19,337 nucleotides of DNA from an uncultured Prevotellaceae bacterium. Its GTDB lineage: Bacteria; Bacteroidota; Bacteroidia; Bacteroidales; Bacteroidaceae. Location of the stretch: assembly GCA_946644025.1 (NCBI GenBank), contig CAMPCG010000017.1, positions 1-19,337 of the forward strand, written 5' to 3'. Below, piece after piece: positions 7,177 to 19,337 of the stretch. The position numbers were made by a program, and so were the translations under genes. The number at the start of each line of letters is the position of its first letter. Positions within the stretch are counted from its first letter, which is position 1. Under the pieces are notes generated by a model. The model did no database searches. It was given only the letters and a program-made list of their open reading frames with translations, and was not told the origin of the DNA.

Positions 7177-7260
7177 AGCCCCACCCCCGGCCCCTCCCCC
7201 GAAGGGAGGGGAGCTTTAGCGGCTTAAGCCTCCCCCTCGGGGGGAGGTTGGTGGGGGCTT
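7177..7260. repeat. GC-rich imperfect inverted repeat between the HU genes
   Basis: AAGCCCCACCCCCGGCCCCT near the left end pairs imperfectly with the right end (GGGGGGAGGTTGGTGGGGGC, then TT), around TTTAGCGGCTTAA. CCTCCCCC/GGGGGAGG cores appear in both arms. It has the same style as the elements inside rimO and the nfn fusion. It starts 3 bp after the first HU stop and could terminate or process the transcript. Confidence 0.75.
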
Positions 7261-7263
7261 GGG

Positions 7264-7288
7264 AGTTAAGAGTTAAGAGTTAGGAGTG
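7264..7288. repeat. AGTTAAG heptamer tandem repeat
   Basis: AGTTAAG, AGTTAAG, AGTTAGG, then AGTG, ending 10 bp before the ATG of the second HU gene. Short heptamer arrays of this kind recur elsewhere in the window (10292). Any effect on translation of HU2 is speculative. Confidence 0.7.
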
Positions 7289-7623: not shown

Positions 7624-7768
7624 TAGGAGTGAAAAGGAGTGAAAGGGAATTGAGCCGACTATCGTCGGCGGGAGTGAAAGTGTCGATACTTTCATCGCTG
7701 AAAGGCATGGCAAGAGTAACGTCACTTTCACTCCCCTTTCACTTCCCTTTCGCTCCCCCCTTCACTTC
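7624..7768. repeat. GAGTGAAAG inverted-repeat array without a gene (empty element)
   Basis: The left side has GGAGTGAAAAGGAGTGAAAG (7626-7645) and GGAGTGAAAGTGTCGATACT (7671-7690). The right side carries the same units inverted (CACTTTCACTCCCCTTTCAC from 7723, then TTCCC, TTTCGCTCCC, TTCACTT). Between them lie two small hairpins (GCCGAC-TATC-GTCGGC, 7654-7669, and GAAAGT/ACTTTC) and no gene. The inner end sequences match those around the four-helix-bundle gene at 8880. Confidence 0.75.
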
Positions 7769-7799
7769 ATGCAAAGTTAAATAACTAATAGATAGAATA

Positions 7800-8795
7800 A
7801 TGGCAGAAAACATTGACATCCGCGAACTGAATATCCGGATAGAACAGCAAAGTGGCTTCGTCACCAACCTGGTGGCAGGCATGGACCGCGTCATTGTCGG
7901 TCAGAAACATCTCGTCGACTCACTGCTCATCGGCCTTCTGAGCGACGGCAACATCCTGCTCGAGGGTGTGCCCGGCCTGGCTAAGACGCTGGCCATCAAG
8001 ACCCTCTCGCAGCTCATCGACGCCCAGTACAGCCGCATACAGTTCACCCCCGACCTGTTGCCGGCCGACGTCACCGGTACGATGATTTACTCGCAGAAGG
8101 ACGAGCGCTTCCTCACCAAGAAAGGCCCCGTCTTTGCCAACTTCGTGCTGGCCGACGAGATTAACCGTGCCCCGGCAAAGGTGCAGAGCGCACTGCTCGA
8201 GGCCATGCAGGAGAAGCAGGTGACCATCGGCAGCGAGACCTTCGACCTGCCCTCGCCCTTCCTCGTCATGGCCACGCAGAACCCCATCGAGCAAGAAGGC
8301 ACCTACCCCCTGCCCGAGGCTCAGGTGGACCGATTCATGCTCAAGGTGGTCATCGACTACCCCTCGCTCGAAGAGGAGAAGAAGATTATCCGCGAGAACA
8401 TTGGCGGCGGCCTGCCCCGCGTGACGCCCGTCACCTCGGCCAAGGACATACTCAAGGCCCGCGAGGTGGTGCGCGAGGTGTATATCGACGAGAAGATTGA
8501 GCAGTACATTGCCGACATCGTCTTCGCCACCCGCTACCCCGACCGCTACGGCCTGAAGGAGCTGAAGGACATGATTTCCTTCGGCGGCTCGCCCCGCGCC
8601 AGCATCAACCTGGCCAAGGCTGCCCGCGCCTACGCCTTCATCAAGCGCCGCGGCTACGTGGTGCCCGAGGATGTGCGCGCCGTGGCCCACGACGTGCTCC
8701 GCCACCGCATCGGACTGACCTACGAGGCCGAGGCCAGCAGCGTTACCAGCGAGGAGATAGTCAGCAAGATAGTGAATAAGGTGGAGGTGCCCTAA
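7800..8795 (+). CDS. moxR: MoxR-family AAA+ ATPase of the Bat aerotolerance operon
   Basis: This 331-aa AAA_3-type ATPase is thought to act as a chaperone for the VWA-domain proteins encoded beside it. Walker A is GVPGLAKT (residues 56-63), Walker B is in FVLADEINRAP (115-125), sensor 1 is MATQNPIEQEGTYPLPEAQ with DRF following, and sensor 2 is in GGSPRASINLAKAARAYA; all are intact and the length is typical. ATG 7800 follows an A/T-rich stretch (TAATAGATAGAATA) without a Shine-Dalgarno, as is common in Bacteroidota. It is the first gene of the Bat set here. Repeat arrays of the same type lie on both sides of it, with the four-helix-bundle gene separating it from DUF58. Confidence 0.95.
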   Translation: MAENIDIRELNIRIEQQSGFVTNLVAGMDRVIVGQKHLVDSLLIGLLSDGNILLEGVPGLAKTLAIKTLSQLIDAQYSRIQFTPDLLPADVTGTMIYSQKDERFLTKKGPVFANFVLADEINRAPAKVQSALLEAMQEKQVTIGSETFDLPSPFLVMATQNPIEQEGTYPLPEAQVDRFMLKVVIDYPSLEEEKKIIRENIGGGLPRVTPVTSAKDILKAREVVREVYIDEKIEQYIADIVFATRYPDRYGLKELKDMISFGGSPRASINLAKAARAYAFIKRRGYVVPEDVRAVAHDVLRHRIGLTYEAEASSVTSEEIVSKIVNKVEVP

Positions 8796-8801
8796 GGTAA
8801 T

Positions 8802-9340
8802 GGAGTGAAAGGGAAGTGAAGGGGAAGTGAAAGGGGAGTGAAAGTGACGATACTTCTTACGTAGAGCGAAACTGAGATTATGGCCCTATATAGTTTTGAG
8901 AACGTGGTTGCATGGCAGAAAGCCCATGCTTTTACAGTCAGCGTATATGCTATTACCAGAGAGTTTCCAATGGAGGAACTCTACGGGCTGACCTCCCAGT
9001 TCCGCAGGGCTGCGGTCTCAATAGAGGCCAATATTGCTGAAGGGTACAAGAAACTAAGCAAGGCAGACAAGCTACGTTTCTTTAATATCTCACAGGGAAG
9101 CCTTGAAGAGTGTCGTAACTATATTCTTCTCTCACGCGACCTGAAATTTGCAGACGATGAAGTTATACAACTTCTCTATCAGCAAATAGAACAGGCCAGC
9201 TGGTTCTTAAACAAATACTGTCAAGGAATAATTAACAACAACGGAGTCAAAGATGAATGACGAAGGGGAAAATGTAGCGAAAAAGCTAACGTTCCTTTCA
9301 CTTCCCCTTCACTCCCTTTTCACTCCCCCTTCACTCCCCA
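8802..9340. mobile_element. Candidate mobile element: four-helix-bundle gene between inverted GAGTGAAAG arrays
   Basis: The left array (8802-8855) has roughly 12-bp units such as AGTGAAAGGGGA and ends GGAGTGAAAGTGACGATACT. The right array (9287-9339) holds the same units inverted (TAACGTTCCTTTCACTTCCC and on). Together they enclose one AT-richer gene (8880-9260). The gene-free copy at 7624-7768 has nearly the same inner ends, which supports a defined unit. No transposase is present, so mobility is inferred and would need help in trans. Confidence 0.5.
8880..9260 (+). CDS. Four-helix-bundle protein (S23 / 23S rRNA intervening-sequence protein family)
   Basis: This 126-aa protein has the family's recognisable order: FENVVAWQKAHAFTVSVYAI, REFPMEELYGLTSQFRRAAV, SIEANIAEGYKKLSKADKLR, FFNISQGSLEECRNYILLSR. 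The family includes ORFs found in 23S rRNA intervening sequences and relatives of the Avd protein of diversity-generating retroelements; the molecular function is unknown. No rRNA, reverse transcriptase or variable repeat lies in this window. It interrupts the moxR-DUF58 junction, is more AT-rich than both, and is flanked by inverted GAGTGAAAG arrays, so it looks inserted. ATG 8880 is preceded by CGAAACTGAGATT. Confidence 0.92.
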   Translation: MALYSFENVVAWQKAHAFTVSVYAITREFPMEELYGLTSQFRRAAVSIEANIAEGYKKLSKADKLRFFNISQGSLEECRNYILLSRDLKFADDEVIQLLYQQIEQASWFLNKYCQGIINNNGVKDE

Positions 9341-9349
9341 TAATGAAAA

Positions 9350-10219
9350 ATGGAAACTTCTGAGATCATCAAAAAAGTCCGCAAGATTGAAATCAAGACC
9401 CGCGGACTGAGCAACAACATCTTCGCCGGACAGTACCACACCGCCTTCAAGGGTCGCGGCATGGCCTTCTCGGAGGTGCGCGAGTATCAGTATGGCGACG
9501 ACGTGCGCGACATAGACTGGAACGTGACGGCCCGATTCAACAAACCCTACGTCAAGGTGTTTGAGGAGGAGCGCGAGCTGACCGTCATGCTACTCGTCGA
9601 CGTCAGCGGCTCGCTCGACTTCGGCACGCAGCGGCAGATGAAGCGCGACATGGTGACCGAGATAGCCGCCACACTGGCCTTCTCGGCCATACAGAACAAC
9701 GACAAGATTGGCGTCATCTTCTTCTCGGACAAGGTGGAGAAATACATTCCGCCGAAGAAGGGCCGCAAGCACATACTCTACATCATACGCGAGATGCTCG
9801 ACTTCCATGCCGACAGCCGACGCACCGACGTGGCACAGGCCATAGAGTTCCTCACCGGAGTGAGCAAACGGCGCTGCACCGCCTTCCTGCTCTCAGACTT
9901 CTACGTGCGCCAGGACTTCAGCCAGCAGCTCACCATCGCCAACCGCAAGCACGACGTGGTGGCCATACAGGTGTATGACCGCCGGGCCATGGAGCTGCCC
10001 GACGTGGGACTGATGAAGGTGGTCGACGCCGAGACGGGATTTGAGCAGTATGTAGACACCGGCAGCCGACGGCTGCGCGACAGCTACCACCGATACTGGA
10101 CCAAACGGCAGGCCGACCTGCGCGAGACCTTCGCCAAGAGCAACGTAGACAGCGTGAGCATTGCCACCGACGGCGACTATGTCAAGTCGCTCCTCGGACT
10201 GTTCAGGCAGAGAAGTTAA
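9350..10219 (+). CDS. DUF58 domain protein of the Bat operon
   Basis: This 289-aa soluble protein has the DUF58 signature SEVREYQYGDDVRDIDWNVT, then ARFNKPYVKVFEEER (residues 41-75), followed by a VWA-like fold with DVSGS (84-88) as a MIDAS-type motif. No membrane segment or signal peptide is visible. DUF58 proteins accompany MoxR ATPases and are predicted to work with them on the periplasm-facing Bat complex; the biochemical role is unknown. ATG 9350 is the obvious start, 11 bp past the inverted repeat array. It is separated from moxR only by the four-helix-bundle insertion. Confidence 0.94.
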   Translation: METSEIIKKVRKIEIKTRGLSNNIFAGQYHTAFKGRGMAFSEVREYQYGDDVRDIDWNVTARFNKPYVKVFEEERELTVMLLVDVSGSLDFGTQRQMKRDMVTEIAATLAFSAIQNNDKIGVIFFSDKVEKYIPPKKGRKHILYIIREMLDFHADSRRTDVAQAIEFLTGVSKRRCTAFLLSDFYVRQDFSQQLTIANRKHDVVAIQVYDRRAMELPDVGLMKVVDAETGFEQYVDTGSRRLRDSYHRYWTKRQADLRETFAKSNVDSVSIATDGDYVKSLLGLFRQRS

Positions 10220-10250: not shown

Positions 10251-11336
10251 ATGAAGTCAAAAGGTAGATGGATAATGCTGGTGGGCTTAACGCTTATCGC
10301 TTATCACTTATCGCTTATCACTTCGTTGGCGCAAGTTAAAGTAGAGTCGACGATAAGTGCCATGGAGATGCTGGTGGGCCAGCAGGTGATGCTCACCGTC
10401 TCGGCCACCGCCGACGAGGGCGCCACCGTGACCTTTCCACAAGAGGCACAGCTGCCCGTGGGCATAGAGTTCATGGGAGCCGTGGAGATGCCCGAGGAGA
10501 AGACCGCCGACGGACAGGTGCTCTACCAGCGCGGATACGTGCTCACCTCCTTCGAGGACACGCTCTACTACATACCACCCTTCACCGTCAACGTAGACGG
10601 CAAGGACTATGAGACGAAGAAACTGGCGCTGAAGGTGCTCACCGTAGACGTGGACACCACCGACTACGAGAAATACTACGGCCCGAAGACCATACAAGAC
10701 AACCCCTTCAACTGGGAGCTCGACGAGTGGGCCGTGCCCTTCTGGCTCAGCGTGATGATGCTCGTCATGCTCGCCCTGACCTATTACCTCTACCTGCGGC
10801 TGCGCGACAACAAGCCCGTCATCGCCCGTCCGCGGTTCATACGCCGGCTGCTGCCCCACCAGAAGGCTATGCAGGCCATCGAGGAGATAAAGGCAGAGCG
10901 GATGCAGACCGCCGAGGACCCGAAGGAGTACTACACCCGACTGACGGACACCCTGCGCAAGTACATCGAGGAGCGCTACGGATTCTATGCCATGGAGATG
11001 ACCAGCACGGAAATCATAGACCGTCTGCAGCAGGAAGACCCGGAGTCGCTGGCAGAGCTGACACAGCTCTTCCAGACCGCCGACCTGGTGAAGTTTGCCA
11101 AGTACTCGACGCTCATCAACGAGAACGACGCCAACCTCGTCTCGGCCATCGACTTCATCAACCGCACGAAGGTGGAGGTGCCACCCGAGCAGCAGGTCAT
11201 CAAGCAAGACCTCACCGAGGAGGAGAAGCAGACGAAGAAGAGCCGCACCACGCTCAAGGCCGCCGTCACCGTGCTGGCCGTGGCCGCGTCAGCGCTGTTC
11301 TGCTATATCGTGTACTGTGTTATTGACTTGATTTAG
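10251..11336 (+). CDS. BatD-like exported membrane protein of the Bat operon
   Basis: This 361-aa protein has an N-terminal signal segment (about residues 5-28, cleavage near SLAQ), a beta-rich periplasmic domain resembling BatD N-termini (STISAMEMLVGQQVMLTVSA), and a membrane span at about 161-183 (AVPFWLSVMMLVMLALTYYL). A cytoplasmic helical part follows (EDPKEYYTRLTDTLRKYIEE, LVKFAKYSTLINEND), and a second hydrophobic span closes the C terminus (about 338-360). It lies 31 bp after DUF58 and shares its strand. The signal-peptide coding sequence contains 4.6 tandem heptamers (10292-10323). The Bat role is inferred from context; it might also be named a DUF4381-like protein. Confidence 0.85.
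   Translation: MKSKGRWIMLVGLTLIAYHLSLITSLAQVKVESTISAMEMLVGQQVMLTVSATADEGATVTFPQEAQLPVGIEFMGAVEMPEEKTADGQVLYQRGYVLTSFEDTLYYIPPFTVNVDGKDYETKKLALKVLTVDVDTTDYEKYYGPKTIQDNPFNWELDEWAVPFWLSVMMLVMLALTYYLYLRLRDNKPVIARPRFIRRLLPHQKAMQAIEEIKAERMQTAEDPKEYYTRLTDTLRKYIEERYGFYAMEMTSTEIIDRLQQEDPESLAELTQLFQTADLVKFAKYSTLINENDANLVSAIDFINRTKVEVPPEQQVIKQDLTEEEKQTKKSRTTLKAAVTVLAVAASALFCYIVYCVIDLI
10292..10323. repeat. GCTTATC/ACTTATC heptamer array in signal-peptide coding sequence
   Basis: Units GCTTATC, GCTTATC, ACTTATC, GCTTATC, ACTT encode residues 14-25 (LIAYHLSLITS region). A change of one unit would shift the frame by one base. Confidence 0.85.
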
Positions 11337-11347
11337 GAGAGAAAGTT

Positions 11348-11665
11348 ATGCAAGAGAAAAGAGCCATGATAATCAATATGATTCGTGAAACCATTCGTGA
11401 AGCAGAGCCAACTGCCCAAATCATTCTCTATGGTTCCCGTGCCAGAGGTGATGCACATGAAGGAAGCGACTGGGATGTGCTGGCTATTGTTGACAAGCCA
11501 AGATTGAGCGTGAAAGAACGTGGCAACATTCAGTATCCTGTTTGGGATAAAGGGCTTGATATGGGAGAGGAAATAAATGTGTTCTCATACACCAGACGAC
11601 AATGGGAACAGGCTCCTCCGTCTCTTTTTAAGAATAATGTATTGAGAGAGGGGATAGTGCTATGA
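11348..11665 (+). CDS. MNT-type nucleotidyltransferase, second MNT-HEPN pair
   Basis: This 105-aa minimal nucleotidyltransferase has YGSRARGDAHEGSDWDVLAI (residues 28-47), with G29-S30 and the catalytic D41/D43 pair; EEINVF (about 74-79) is the likely third acidic site. It starts 12 bp after the BatD-like gene and its stop overlaps the next start by 4 bp (ATGA), so the two are probably translated together. It is clearly more AT-rich than the Bat genes on both sides. It is probably an antitoxin against the HEPN partner, inferred from the gene pair. It is not closely similar to the first MNT protein (431). Confidence 0.88.
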   Translation: MQEKRAMIINMIRETIREAEPTAQIILYGSRARGDAHEGSDWDVLAIVDKPRLSVKERGNIQYPVWDKGLDMGEEINVFSYTRRQWEQAPPSLFKNNVLREGIVL

Positions 11666-12060
11666 GTTTAGATATGGACAACAGAAAAGCAGTCGTAGAC
11701 TACCGGAAGGAAAAGGCTGATGCCGCCCTGGAGGATGCCGATTTCTTAGCTCAGGCGGGAAAGTACAATCTCGCCGCCAACCGTTTATATTACGCTCTGT
11801 ATTATGCTTGCACTGCACTTCTGATTAGTAAGGAAATTCCCACAAAACGTCATGCTGGCATGATTGCACAGATTAGCAGGCATTTTGTAAAAACAGGAGT
11901 CCTTTCTGTTGACGATGGAAAGCTTATAAAGGTTATGTTTAACCTACGCCATGAGGGTGATTATGAAGACTTCGTTGATGTGCAGGCTGAGGATTTAGAA
12001 GAATTTACTCCTCTCGTTCGCTCCTTAGTTCGAAAGCTGAAAGGGCTGACTGAGATATAA
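11662..12060 (+). CDS. HEPN domain protein, second MNT-HEPN pair
   Basis: This 132-aa helical protein has the HEPN core AANRLYYALYYACTALLISK (residues 38-57) and NLRHEGDYEDFVD (94-106), as in the PF05168-type HEPN proteins that are partners of MNT. Unlike the first pair it shows no R-x4-6-H ribonuclease motif; R96 and D100-Y101 occupy the conserved C-terminal motif instead, so catalytic activity is uncertain. The start at ATG 11662 overlaps the MNT stop. The pair sits between the BatD-like gene and batA and is AT-rich, so it is probably a later insertion into the Bat operon. The 62 bp to batA show nothing special. Confidence 0.87.
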   Translation: MSLDMDNRKAVVDYRKEKADAALEDADFLAQAGKYNLAANRLYYALYYACTALLISKEIPTKRHAGMIAQISRHFVKTGVLSVDDGKLIKVMFNLRHEGDYEDFVDVQAEDLEEFTPLVRSLVRKLKGLTEI

Positions 12061-16849: not shown

Positions 16850-18253
16850 ATGTTTAGCAAAGAAACCTATATCCGCCGCCGTGCGGAACTGAAACGCCTT
16901 GTAGGCAATGGCGTTATCGTGTTCTTCGGAAACAACGAGTCGCCGATGAACTATCCAGCTAATGTCTATTCACCCATGCGCCAGGACTCCTCCTTCCTCT
17001 ACTACTTCGGACAGAAGCGCGAGGGGCTGGTGGGCATCATCGACATTGACAACGACCAGGAGTGGCTGCTGGGCAACGACATCGATGTGGCCGACATCGT
17101 GTGGATGGGCTATACGCCCTCTGTCAGCGACCTTGCCGCAGAGGTGGGGGTTGCAAAGACTGCCCCGCTCGCCCAGCTCAGTCAGCTATGCTGCAACAGT
17201 GGTGCAGCAAAGAGGACGCTCCACTTCCTGCCCCCCTATCGTCACGACACCATGATTCAGCTCATGGACCTCACGGGCATACACCCCTCGAAGCAGAAGG
17301 AGGCCGCCTCGGTAGAGCTTATCAAGGCCGTGGTGAAGATGCGTTCGCGCAAGGAGCTGCAGGAGATAGACCTCATTGAGCGTGTTTGCGACATCGGCTA
17401 CGAGATGCACGTCACGGCCATGGATCTCATTGAGCCGGGCAAGACCGAGCGCGAGGTGGCAGGCCAGGTGGACGGCGTCGCCCGCTCACGGACACAGGGC
17501 AACTCGTTCCCCACCATATTCTCGCAGCATGGCGAGATTATGCATGGCTCTCCCAGCGATGCCCGTATGGAGGAGGGGCGGCTGGTCATCTGCGATGCTG
17601 GCTGCGAGCTGGAGGGCTATGCCTCAGACAACACCCGCACCATGCCTGTCAGCGGACGCTTTACCCCGAAACAACTGGACATATACCGCATCGTCGAGGA
17701 GTGTCACGACTATGTGCTCGATGTGGCCAAGCCCGGCGTGAAGTGGGCCGACGTACACTTTGCCGTAGCCCGCATGATGACTGAGCGGCTGAAGGAACTT
17801 GGACTGATGAAGGGCGATGTGGACGAGGCCGTTGCAGCCGGCGCCCATGCCATGTTCTTCCCCCACGGACTGGGCCACATGATGGGTCTCGACGTACACG
17901 ACATGGAGGGCCTGGGACAGATATACGTGGGCTTTGACGACGAGACACGTCCCAACCTGGAGCAGTTCGGCACCAACTGCCTGCGCATGGGCCGCCGACT
18001 GGAGCCAGGATTCATCCTCAGCGACGAGCCAGGCATCTACTTCATACCCGCACTCATAGACAAGTGGCGCGCCGAAGGCCACTGCAAGGACTTCCTTTGC
18101 TTCGACAAGATAGAGGAGTACAGGGACTTCGGCGGCGTGCGCATAGAGGACGACCTGCTCATCATGGAGGGCGGATGCCGCTTCATGGGCCACAAGCGTA
18201 TACCCTACCACCCCGAGGACGTGGAAGAGCGAATGAGCAACCTGCCATTCTAA
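16850..18253 (+). CDS. M24 family metallopeptidase, Xaa-Pro aminopeptidase type
   Basis: This 467-aa protein has an aminopeptidase P N-terminal domain (about residues 1-150: RRRAELKRLVGNGVIVFFGN, DSSFLYYFGQ) and a pita-bread catalytic domain. All five metal ligands are present: D249 (VICDAG), D260 (ASDNTRT), H343 (HGLGHMMGLDVHD), E393 (SDEPGIYF) and E433 (VRIEDDLL). It probably removes N-terminal residues preceding proline, most likely in the cytoplasm, as no signal peptide is visible. The start ATG 16850 follows AATAACTAAAAACA, an A-rich Bacteroidota-type leader. It is 20 bp downstream of the coiled-coil gene, apparently in the same transcript. Confidence 0.95.
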   Translation: MFSKETYIRRRAELKRLVGNGVIVFFGNNESPMNYPANVYSPMRQDSSFLYYFGQKREGLVGIIDIDNDQEWLLGNDIDVADIVWMGYTPSVSDLAAEVGVAKTAPLAQLSQLCCNSGAAKRTLHFLPPYRHDTMIQLMDLTGIHPSKQKEAASVELIKAVVKMRSRKELQEIDLIERVCDIGYEMHVTAMDLIEPGKTEREVAGQVDGVARSRTQGNSFPTIFSQHGEIMHGSPSDARMEEGRLVICDAGCELEGYASDNTRTMPVSGRFTPKQLDIYRIVEECHDYVLDVAKPGVKWADVHFAVARMMTERLKELGLMKGDVDEAVAAGAHAMFFPHGLGHMMGLDVHDMEGLGQIYVGFDDETRPNLEQFGTNCLRMGRRLEPGFILSDEPGIYFIPALIDKWRAEGHCKDFLCFDKIEEYRDFGGVRIEDDLLIMEGGCRFMGHKRIPYHPEDVEERMSNLPF

Positions 18254-18258
18254 CCCCC

Positions 18259-18301
18259 AACACCCATCACCCAAACACCCATCACCCAACACCCATCACC
18301 C
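18259..18301. repeat. AACACCCATCACCC tandem repeat abutting a start codon
   Basis: Two 14-bp units and one 15-bp unit (18259-18272, 18273-18287, 18288-18301) fill nearly the whole gap between the M24 stop and the ATG at 18303. Confidence 0.88.
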
Positions 18302-18302
18302 A

Positions 18303-19337
18303 ATGGAAGCATTCTTCCGTACACACAGATACCTTGTGGAGCATGTCAACGCCCCCGTCCGCCGCACGTTGATGGACGAGATTGACTGGAGCCACCGCAT
18401 GATTGGCATCAAGGGGACACGGGGCGTGGGCAAGACAACGTTTCTGCTGCAGTACGCCCGCGAGCACTTTGACCTCGAGGACAAGCAGTGCCTCTATGTC
18501 AACATGAACAACTTCTACTTCCAGGGTCGGGGCATTGCCGACTTCGCCGGCGAGTTCTATCACCACGGCGGCCGCGTGTTGCTCATCGACCAGGTGTTCA
18601 AGCAGCCCGACTGGTCGAAGGAACTTCGCCGCTGCTACGACCTCTACCCTGGGCTGAAGATTGTGTTCACCGGTAGCAGCGTGATGCGACTGAAGGACGA
18701 GAACCCCGAGCTGAATGGCATCGTACAGAGCTATAATCTGCGGGGGTTCTCCTTCCGTGAATTCCTCAATTTGATGACGGGCAATGAGTTCCGTCCTTAC
18801 TCGCTCGAAGAGATTCTCACAGACCACGAGCACATCGTCAAGCAGATATTGCCGAAGGCTTCGCCGCGAAAGTATTTCCAAGACTACATCCACCACGGGT
18901 TCTATCCTTTCTTCCAGGAGCACCGCAACTACTCTGAAAACCTGCTCAAGACGATGAACATGATGACCGAGGTGGACATCCTGCTCGTCAAGCAGATAGA
19001 GCTGAAGTACCTCACGAAGATCAAGAAGCTCTTCTACCAGCTGGCCGAGGAGGGGCCCAAGGCGCCCAACGTCAGCAAGCTGGCCATGGACATCGAGACC
19101 AGCCGCGCCACCGTGATGAACTACATCAAGTATCTGGCCGACGCCCGCCTGCTGAACATGATCTACCCCGTGGGCGAAGCCTTCCCGAAGAAGCCGTCGA
19201 AGGTGATGCTCCACAACTCCAACCTGCTCTACGCCATCTACCCCATCCACGTCGATAAGCAGACGGCCATGGAGACCTTCTTCGTCAACTCGCTGTGGAA
19301 GGACCATAAGGTCAACCAGCAGCCGCGCGACACCCGC
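18303..19337 (+). CDS. AAA-family ATP-binding protein (AAA_14/DUF4143-like), truncated by window end
   Basis: The frame from ATG 18303 is open for 345 codons to the last base, so the 3' end is missing. Walker A is GTRGVGKT (residues 38-45). The Walker B region reads RVLLIDQVFKQPDWSKELRR (91-110), with Gln where the catalytic Glu is usual; FTGSSVMRL further on is the sensor-like motif, and LRGFSFREFLNLMTG follows. Near residues 260-280 a winged-helix-like stretch (KAPNVSKLAMDIETSRATVM, NYIKYLADARLL) begins the DUF4143-type part. Such genes are numerous and variable in Bacteroidota and their function is largely unknown. The leader is a tandem repeat, not a recognisable ribosome-binding site. 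Confidence 0.9.
   Translation, partial: MEAFFRTHRYLVEHVNAPVRRTLMDEIDWSHRMIGIKGTRGVGKTTFLLQYAREHFDLEDKQCLYVNMNNFYFQGRGIADFAGEFYHHGGRVLLIDQVFKQPDWSKELRRCYDLYPGLKIVFTGSSVMRLKDENPELNGIVQSYNLRGFSFREFLNLMTGNEFRPYSLEEILTDHEHIVKQILPKASPRKYFQDYIHHGFYPFFQEHRNYSENLLKTMNMMTEVDILLVKQIELKYLTKIKKLFYQLAEEGPKAPNVSKLAMDIETSRATVMNYIKYLADARLLNMIYPVGEAFPKKPSKVMLHNSNLLYAIYPIHVDKQTAMETFFVNSLWKDHKVNQQPRDTR

Follow-up and report, generated by a model that had tools for sequence, protein, structure and literature searches.

A putative dispersing hairpin element with a PF05635 four-helix-bundle gene between moxR and a DUF58 gene of a Prevotellaceae bacterium

The present study concerns an element in a stretch of 19,337 nucleotides (nt) (hereafter, the window) from an uncultured Prevotellaceae bacterium (contig CAMPCG010000017.1, assembly GCA_946644025.1). 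The element lies between moxR and a DUF58 gene and consists of two complementary arrays of short tandem units, termed arms, around a gene for a four-helix-bundle protein. We consider it probable, with moderate confidence, that this is a dispersing hairpin element of the intervening sequence (IVS) type, located between operon genes and not in rRNA, in which arms in register enclose a pentamer-type gene of the S23p/IVP family. As judged from sequences, hairpins of this kind, some containing the gene and some lacking it, have spread between neighboring genes in many bacteria without carrying a known transposase. Comparisons among loci established the architecture, conserved protein, matching arms, sense placement, filled and empty sites, and multi-copy gene-less forms.

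Arms and protein of the element

The gene-bearing element spans positions 8802-9339 on the forward strand. Its left arm (8802-8855) has four GGAGTGAAAGG-type units and the inner motif GACGATACT, and its right arm (9285-9339) begins with the inner motif CTAACGTTC, followed by inverted units. Both arms were delimited by a repeat scan and by relatives, the right arm also by an RNA fold. The units are approximately 11 nt, of the GGAGTGAAAGG type at the left and its reverse complement at the right. The four-helix gene (8880-9260, forward strand, 126 aa) was the only open reading frame (ORF) found between these arms, and related elements enclose the same family. The predicted RNA fold of the element reached -182.9 kcal/mol, and the right arm paired with 45 of the first 62 bases.

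A gene-less pair of arrays (7624-7768) precedes moxR, and the gene order is HU gene, gene-less pair, moxR, gene-bearing pair, and DUF58 gene. The left arm comprises an outer part of GGAGTGAAA-type units found by the repeat scan (7624-7653), a small interrupting hairpin (GCCGAC..GTCGGC, 7654-7669) read in the sequence and paired in the RNA fold, and an inner unit with the inner motif GTCGATACT (7670-7691) that is 95% identical to 8834-8855. After a loop of approximately 23 nt, the right arm (7715-7768; repeat scan and fold) has the inner motif AGTAACGTC and then inverted units. The fold of this element reached -80.8 kcal/mol. The initial annotation had reported two inverted pairs with similar inner ends and TAACGT in both right ends. 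A sequence scan of the window found both pairs where it had placed them, the inner ends GGAGTGAAAGTGTCGATACT from 7671 and GGAGTGAAAGTGACGATACT from 8835 (95% alike over 22 nt), and TAACGT at 7717-7722 and 9287-9292. The arms end inward in G(T/A)CGATACT at the left and in AGTAACGTC or CTAACGTTC at the right. In an inverted-repeat scan, the gene-bearing pair scored 27 and the gene-less pair 15, and the best score in 30 block-3 shuffles of the window was 15. Therefore, the gene-less pair by itself was not above chance in that scan, and the case for it comes from the inner ends in common with the gene-bearing element and from similar copies in relatives. The window had no match in Rfam at the gathering score, and none was found in the phage records searched.

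The protein matched PF05635 (118.1 bits, against a cut-off of 33.8) and TIGR02436, the 23S rRNA IVP family (111.2 bits). Its structure model had a mean predicted local distance difference test (pLDDT) score of 94.6. The top Foldseek match was XCC0516 (2gsc; template modeling score, 0.84-0.96), the five chains of which were the sole matches with E <0.001, followed by BT_0352 (2rld; E about 0.001-0.005) and Avd (4dwl, 8ub7; probability 1.0, E 0.02-0.14, 8-10% identity). The accessible part of PMC4990558 describes XCC0516 as a homopentamer. Six residues (Q40, R43, S47, N51, E54, and E77) were invariant in 39 sequences. The ratio of non-synonymous to synonymous substitution (dN/dS) was 0.03-0.12 in eight of 12 pairs, some loci being used in several pairs, and dS was saturated in the remaining four. 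The enclosed protein is probably a ring-former that binds RNA. We know of no established function for the PF05635 family.

The 126-aa protein, used as a query against genome contigs, gave 222 relatives, among which 80 loci were kept; these are labeled as Prevotella or other Bacteroidales and are mostly metagenome-assembled genomes. By its closest relatives in this set, the window is Prevotella-like. With the window counted as one, the set has 81 loci, and 79 had enough flank. At an ungapped arm score of at least 12, arms enclosed the four-helix gene as in the window in 75 of these 79 loci. Most relatives have the same plan with other units, such as GAGTGAAAG, GAGTTAAAG, GAGTTCAG, AGATAAAAG, and GAGACAAG. 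The repeat unit thus varies from element to element, and the two arms of each stay complementary. Mean arm identity was 0.88 in register versus 0.61 when slid by one period, and was higher in register in 71 of 75 loci, with the diagonal picked as the best, a choice that favors the in-register value. The median local score was 28 for the arms of one locus versus 10 for arms from different loci, a baseline raised by units common to many loci. When loci with like units were paired, own arms exceeded swapped arms in 175 of 232 pairs. In 72 of 74 loci, RNA folding paired most of the left arm with sequence past the gene. Left arms were purine-rich in 74 of 74 of these loci and in 39 of 44 genes of the phylum sample described below (one of 75 and three of 47, at exactly one half, were omitted).

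Co-variation between the arms was assessed in three site sets. At the kdu site (13 sequences), both sides changed in seven of 16 pairs and 93% of cells were standard pairs; the pairing was reached in none of 500 shuffles and the both-side count in four. Both sides changed in four of 33 pairs in the etf clade (33 of 500 shuffles reached this count and 10 the pairing) and in one of 20 pairs in the f2|f3 gap of an operon considered below (425 of 500 shuffles). These shuffles left out one row per set (L035, L059, and L244); when every row was kept, both sides changed in 7, 5, and 6 pairs. Joint change of both arms may reflect compensatory change or template switching between the arms. Template switching of this kind is known as quasi-palindrome correction. 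In the f5|f6 gap of L249, the right arm was a long run of TGAACTCC copies and the left arm was short, which indicates that one arm can grow alone.

Sites, inheritance, and gene-less copies

The 81 loci fell into 41 neighbor-gene classes, nine of which were split by ORF miscalls or contig ends, leaving approximately 32 sites. The sites are conserved operon gaps, including kduI-kduD, etfA-acyl-CoA dehydrogenase, mlaE-mlaF, parA-parB, gcvH-gcvPA, atpH-atpA, gltX-waaA, pta-ackA, and moxR-DUF58, as named by reading the neighbor proteins without a database search. The four-helix gene was co-oriented with both neighbors in 70 of the 77 loci with two neighbors, and miscalled upstream ORFs seem to account for three of the seven exceptions. 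As a background in the same loci, 45 of 104 middle ORFs of 90-200 aa and 109 of 229 larger ORFs were co-oriented. The count in the phylum sample was 50 of 67.

On a protein tree made by a quick method from few columns, the site groups needed 13 changes; the minimum possible was 10, and shuffles averaged 39.2. Therefore, insertions appear to be usually old. The three moxR-DUF58 and two gltX-waaA proteins formed one group of five (support, 87), and the GAGTGAAAG unit occurs at both sites. Across different sites, unit similarity tracked protein identity (Spearman 0.26, reached by none of 999 permutations), indicating that arms and gene travel together.

Neighboring genes in the window are moxR (7800-8795; ORF and profile search) upstream and the DUF58 gene (9350-10219; profile search) downstream, both on the forward strand. 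We examined this gap in the 30 best relatives among 90 matching genomes, using for the 19 loci on the minus strand the gap length alone, counted from the DUF58 start. The element was present in one (the same locus as L001), and the gap was 2-112 bp in the other 29. In L111 (genome G080), the MoxR of which is 97% identical, the gap holds a gene-less inverted array of an unrelated unit, ACAGATAAAAACAAG.

Filled and empty sites were also found within one genus, in which eight genomes had 1-16 PF05635 matches each and one operon was compared in seven. Each of four gaps in this operon was filled in some genomes and empty in others. Six genomes had the f2|f3 gap occupied (L250 by a short gene), and in L249 it measured 3 nt. 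The f4|f5 gap was a 4-nt overlap in L248, 131 nt without a gene in L250, and held a truncated gene in L244. The f5|f6 gap was 46, 67, and 49 nt in L246, L248, and L250, respectively (L247 was uncovered), and the f1|f2 gap was 39 nt in L250. The f1|f2 gap of L249 (415 nt) contained a reading frame for a four-helix protein that lacks an ATG start. Gene decay was seen in L244 and L250.

In a Nostoc plasmid operon (nine records), the element occupied gap 1 of L213, L283, and L284 and gap 2 of L218. Gap 1 was 3 nt in L218 and L285-L288 and held 199 nt of other sequence in L289, and gap 2 was at most 4 nt in the eight records other than L218. Gap 0 contained gene-less elements of the GGAGTCAG unit with different loops in L284 and L285, and none in L286 and L288. 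The loop in L285 has its own long palindrome (CACCACTAAATC..GATTTAGTGGTG), which the L284 copy at the same place lacks. Half elements of approximately 120 nt, with a right-arm-like array (TTCTGGCTCCTGACTTCTG..) and no full left arm, were noted in gap 0 of L283, L286, and L288. In Picosynechococcus, PCC 7003 has the element in its cmr2-cmr3 gap, and the corresponding gap of PCC 7002, at 90.9% identity, is empty. Comparison of these sites indicates both gain and loss of the element. The initial annotation had proposed that empty moxR-DUF58 sites would define the ends and any target duplication. The element was absent from this gap in 29 of 30 relatives; the junctions, read in Nostoc and Picosynechococcus, appear compatible with insertion without a clear target duplication.

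The age of the sites bears on a different explanation, in which the hairpins serve the host in mRNA processing or stability by tuning operon neighbors, the four-helix protein is their regulator, and the apparent spread is slow duplication. The old and vertically kept sites, the strong constraint on the protein, and the sense placement in conserved operons are in accordance with such a role. However, gaps were filled or empty within one genus and within one plasmid operon, the gene decayed in L244 and L250, and the sites belong to unrelated pathways. We regard a host-serving element as unlikely.

Gene-less forms were examined with the inner-end pattern (up to three mismatches). In G002, the genome of L002, this pattern had 81 matches versus three for the reversed pattern. 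Facing pairs with the inner ends of the window numbered 19 in G002 (at least 19 gene-less copies) and one in G001; these 20 regions were picked for facing motifs, and all loops were shorter than 90 nt. Among the 19 pairs in G002, the lowest arm score was 15 and the median 32; the loops measured 9-86 nt. Genome G004 had 12 inner-end and 16 PF05635 matches. A gene-less loop in L068 retained a four-helix remnant (E = 2e-4 in a small search). In a scan of 861 kb, three large loops (L005, L008, and L030) held more distant four-helix genes within arrays of other units. Judged by sequence, hairpins that share these inner ends but lack the gene act as non-autonomous copies would.

Scattered gene-less hairpins in intergenic regions, together with a gene that has the same arms, resemble REPINs and RAYTs as these are described in the sources accessible to us. 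A mechanism of that kind would have a Y1/HUH transposase, supplied in trans, mobilize the hairpins in single-stranded form, with the four-helix gene as cargo or as an accessory factor. Y1 genes were present in nine of the 10 genomes searched. However, G004 had no Y1 match despite its PF05635 and inner-end matches, and the GAGTGAAAG unit occurred in none of 12 Y1 loci (of 33 matches, 1.5 kb each), six of which were from genomes in which the unit was sought. Moreover, it is the four-helix gene that consistently accompanies the arms. Although it is the strongest of the alternatives, we consider this mechanism rather unlikely.

Breadth of the association and proposed mechanism

Of 148 Bacteroidota genomes sampled, 113 had PF05635 matches above the cut-off, and a single genome had as many as 16. 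The phylum sample was not random: it consisted of 30 loci from the best-scoring matches and 40 hand-picked from the listed matches. The number of genes per locus varied from none to three, and of 71 genes one was dropped (>520 nt). The arm score was at least 14 in 47 of the 70 genes and at least 12 in 58. At the threshold of 14, controls gave 16 of 350 swapped arms, three of 210 shuffles, and five of 43 other ORFs. The 43 control ORFs include repeats from loci with several four-helix genes, and two of the five are other four-helix genes of L193, as identified by locus, length, and score.

These counts bear on whether the arms are ordinary intergenic repeats unlinked to the gene. These genomes contain many other inverted arrays, and the L111 gap holds an unrelated one. 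However, arms enclosed the four-helix gene far above controls, own arms matched better than the arms of other loci, and arms and gene occurred together in four phyla. We consider an unlinked origin highly improbable.

Nine genes in cyanobacterial, Azospirillum, and Gemmatimonadota plasmid records, hand-picked as eight of 29 listed and one from another search, had arm scores of at least 12 in all nine and at least 14 in six. In seven annotated cyanobacterial loci, including cmr2/cmr3, cas6/cas4, and AAA ATPase/parB, the gene was co-oriented with both neighbors. Four-helix genes in cas loci (PMC3936711) and the Flavobacterium order gmk-four-helix-nadD (PMC5524665) would be compatible with these results. 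L217 is an insert within a 23S rRNA gene (Rfam LSU) on a plasmid of Azospirillum lipoferum, and its stem consists of AGAGGACGGATGACAG-type tandem arrays (score, 26); this was the sole rRNA case in our data. Gemmatirosa L281 had no Rfam match.

Inverted arrays around Bacteroidota four-helix genes, which the initial annotation had suggested searching for, were found in 75 of 79 relatives and 47 of 70 genes across the phylum; such flanks are not generally missing. With arrays around most PF05635 genes, filled and empty sites, and at least 19 gene-less copies in G002, its view of a defined element in gene-carrying and MITE-like (miniature inverted-repeat transposable element) forms was borne out. 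Regarding the ends, the inner ends are shared, but the arms are not fixed terminal repeats since the unit changes between elements. It had also suggested a little-described mobile unit built on an S23/Avd-like protein. No transposase was enclosed, and no account was found in the literature searched; a role of the protein in driving the spread belongs to the mechanism proposed below.

In the IVS-type element that we favor, the operon transcript would fold into a long stem and, by analogy, be cut there as RNase III cuts the rRNA IVS. Cutting would leave the host genes expressed and the insert tolerated. The four-helix ring may bind the stem, either as RNA or as the same hairpin in single-stranded DNA, and may be needed in cis or in trans for new copies. 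A host activity would perform the joining.

A reverse transcriptase acting in trans, as with Avd and the reverse transcriptase of diversity-generating retroelements, might instead copy the element. Avd and the retroelement complex (4dwl, 8ub7) were among the structural matches, and an RNA intermediate would yield sense placement in transcribed gaps. However, RVT_1 was present in just five of the 10 genomes and in none of G145, G161, and G133 (16, 14, and 13 PF05635 matches), which may be incomplete. This retroelement-like route appears improbable. Since RVT_1 occurred in five of 10 genomes, Y1 in nine of 10, and the GAGTGAAAG unit in none of the 12 Y1 loci, no universal partner is evident.

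Several points weigh against an IVS-type dispersing element. The support is comparative, and the searches of 10 genomes for Y1 and RVT_1 revealed no joining enzyme. The filled and empty junctions of Nostoc and Picosynechococcus had no clear target duplication, although that of L218 gap 2 is readable as one of 3 nt. The site groups are mostly single clades on the sequence tree; hence, movement appears to be rare. Co-variation was strong on its own at kdu alone among the three site sets, 23 of the 70 phylum genes were under the arm threshold, and inverted arrays lacking a four-helix gene abound in these genomes, three of 80 other inverted repeats in 861 kb surrounding further genes of that type.

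More tentatively, we speculate that PF05635 represents a large undescribed class of transposase-free operon hairpins, of which the rRNA IVS is the best-known corner. The arms would not be inherited ends; one would be copied from the other in replication or repair, and any tandem unit would serve. The ring would recognize the shape of the hairpin and not its sequence. The paired, changing arms provide a concrete candidate ligand for PF05635 proteins, and the results connect the rRNA IVS with operon insertions that are far more numerous. They also point to spreading without a recognized transposase. If this is true, four-helix genes in cas, par, and other operons are insertions and not parts of those systems.

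Other repeats and gene pairs were noted in these genomes. In a second family of inverted repeats around a single ORF, the ORF is of the DUF559 (PF04480) type and the arms form hairpins of their own (CCCCACCCCCGGCCCCTCCC..GGGAGGGG), as in L055 (388-916) and L059 (4326-4867). The arm score of this family was at least 18 in 13 of 26 uncut loci and in 12 of the 14 with an ORF of up to 160 aa, and in five of 78 swapped arms. Positions 7178-7260 and 2443-2557 of the window look like gene-less copies of this type. The window also has direct tandem repeats, not inverted pairs, of GAGTTAA (7263-7287), GCTTATC/ACTTATC (7 nt; 10285-10323), and CCCAACACCCATCA (14 nt; 18252-18303). Two nucleotidyltransferase-HEPN pairs (431-1088 and 11348-12060) resemble the type VII toxin-antitoxin MntA/HepT; no flanking arrays were seen by eye at either.

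Comparison with known systems

REPIN-RAYT systems, as far as accessible descriptions go, similarly combine many intergenic hairpins with one gene that has the same ends. In contrast, the gene enclosed here is a PF05635 four-helix gene and not a Y1 (HUH) transposase, and the units change freely between elements. Unlike MITEs and insertion sequence (IS) elements, the present element neither carries a transposase nor is related to one by its ends. The BrickBuilt MITE of Porphyromonas gingivalis reportedly has a minisatellite inside a MITE (PMC4596501). The TAACTGA heptamers of Bacteroidetes and Cyanobacteria are likewise short tandem units in intergenic gaps; however, they are direct repeats of one heptamer, inverted just once in the main genome of that study, and the accessible part of that report mentions no enclosed four-helix gene (PMC4679880).

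Avd of diversity-generating retroelements shares the fold (4dwl, 8ub7), and PF05635 is described as resembling Avd in the accessible text of PMC10053308. However, the PF05635 match is direct, and the similarity to Avd is structural at 8-10% identity. Profile searches of 10 window ORFs revealed no reverse transcriptase beside the element.

Among known systems, the 23S rRNA IVS comes closest: it encodes a protein of this family and, in Azospirillum, has arms of this kind. According to the accessible parts of the sources, the IVS has an S23p/IVP (PF05635) protein, complementary ends pairing into a stem whose loop contains the ORF, and excision by RNase III without ligation (PMC4990558), and it shares with our elements a patchy distribution and ORF-less forms, reported as ORF-less rRNA insertions (PMC4990558, PMC11270868). 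The open full-text literature searched, to the extent accessible, yielded papers on the rRNA IVS, Avd, REPINs, and heptamer repeats, but none describing operon-borne PF05635 genes flanked by inverted tandem arrays. Unlike the IVS, the window element lies between moxR and DUF58 and not in an rRNA gene, a location that L217 does have, and gene-less copies give dozens of inner-end matches in one genome. By its anatomy and its protein, the window element may be viewed as the operon counterpart of the IVS, although not as a member by location.
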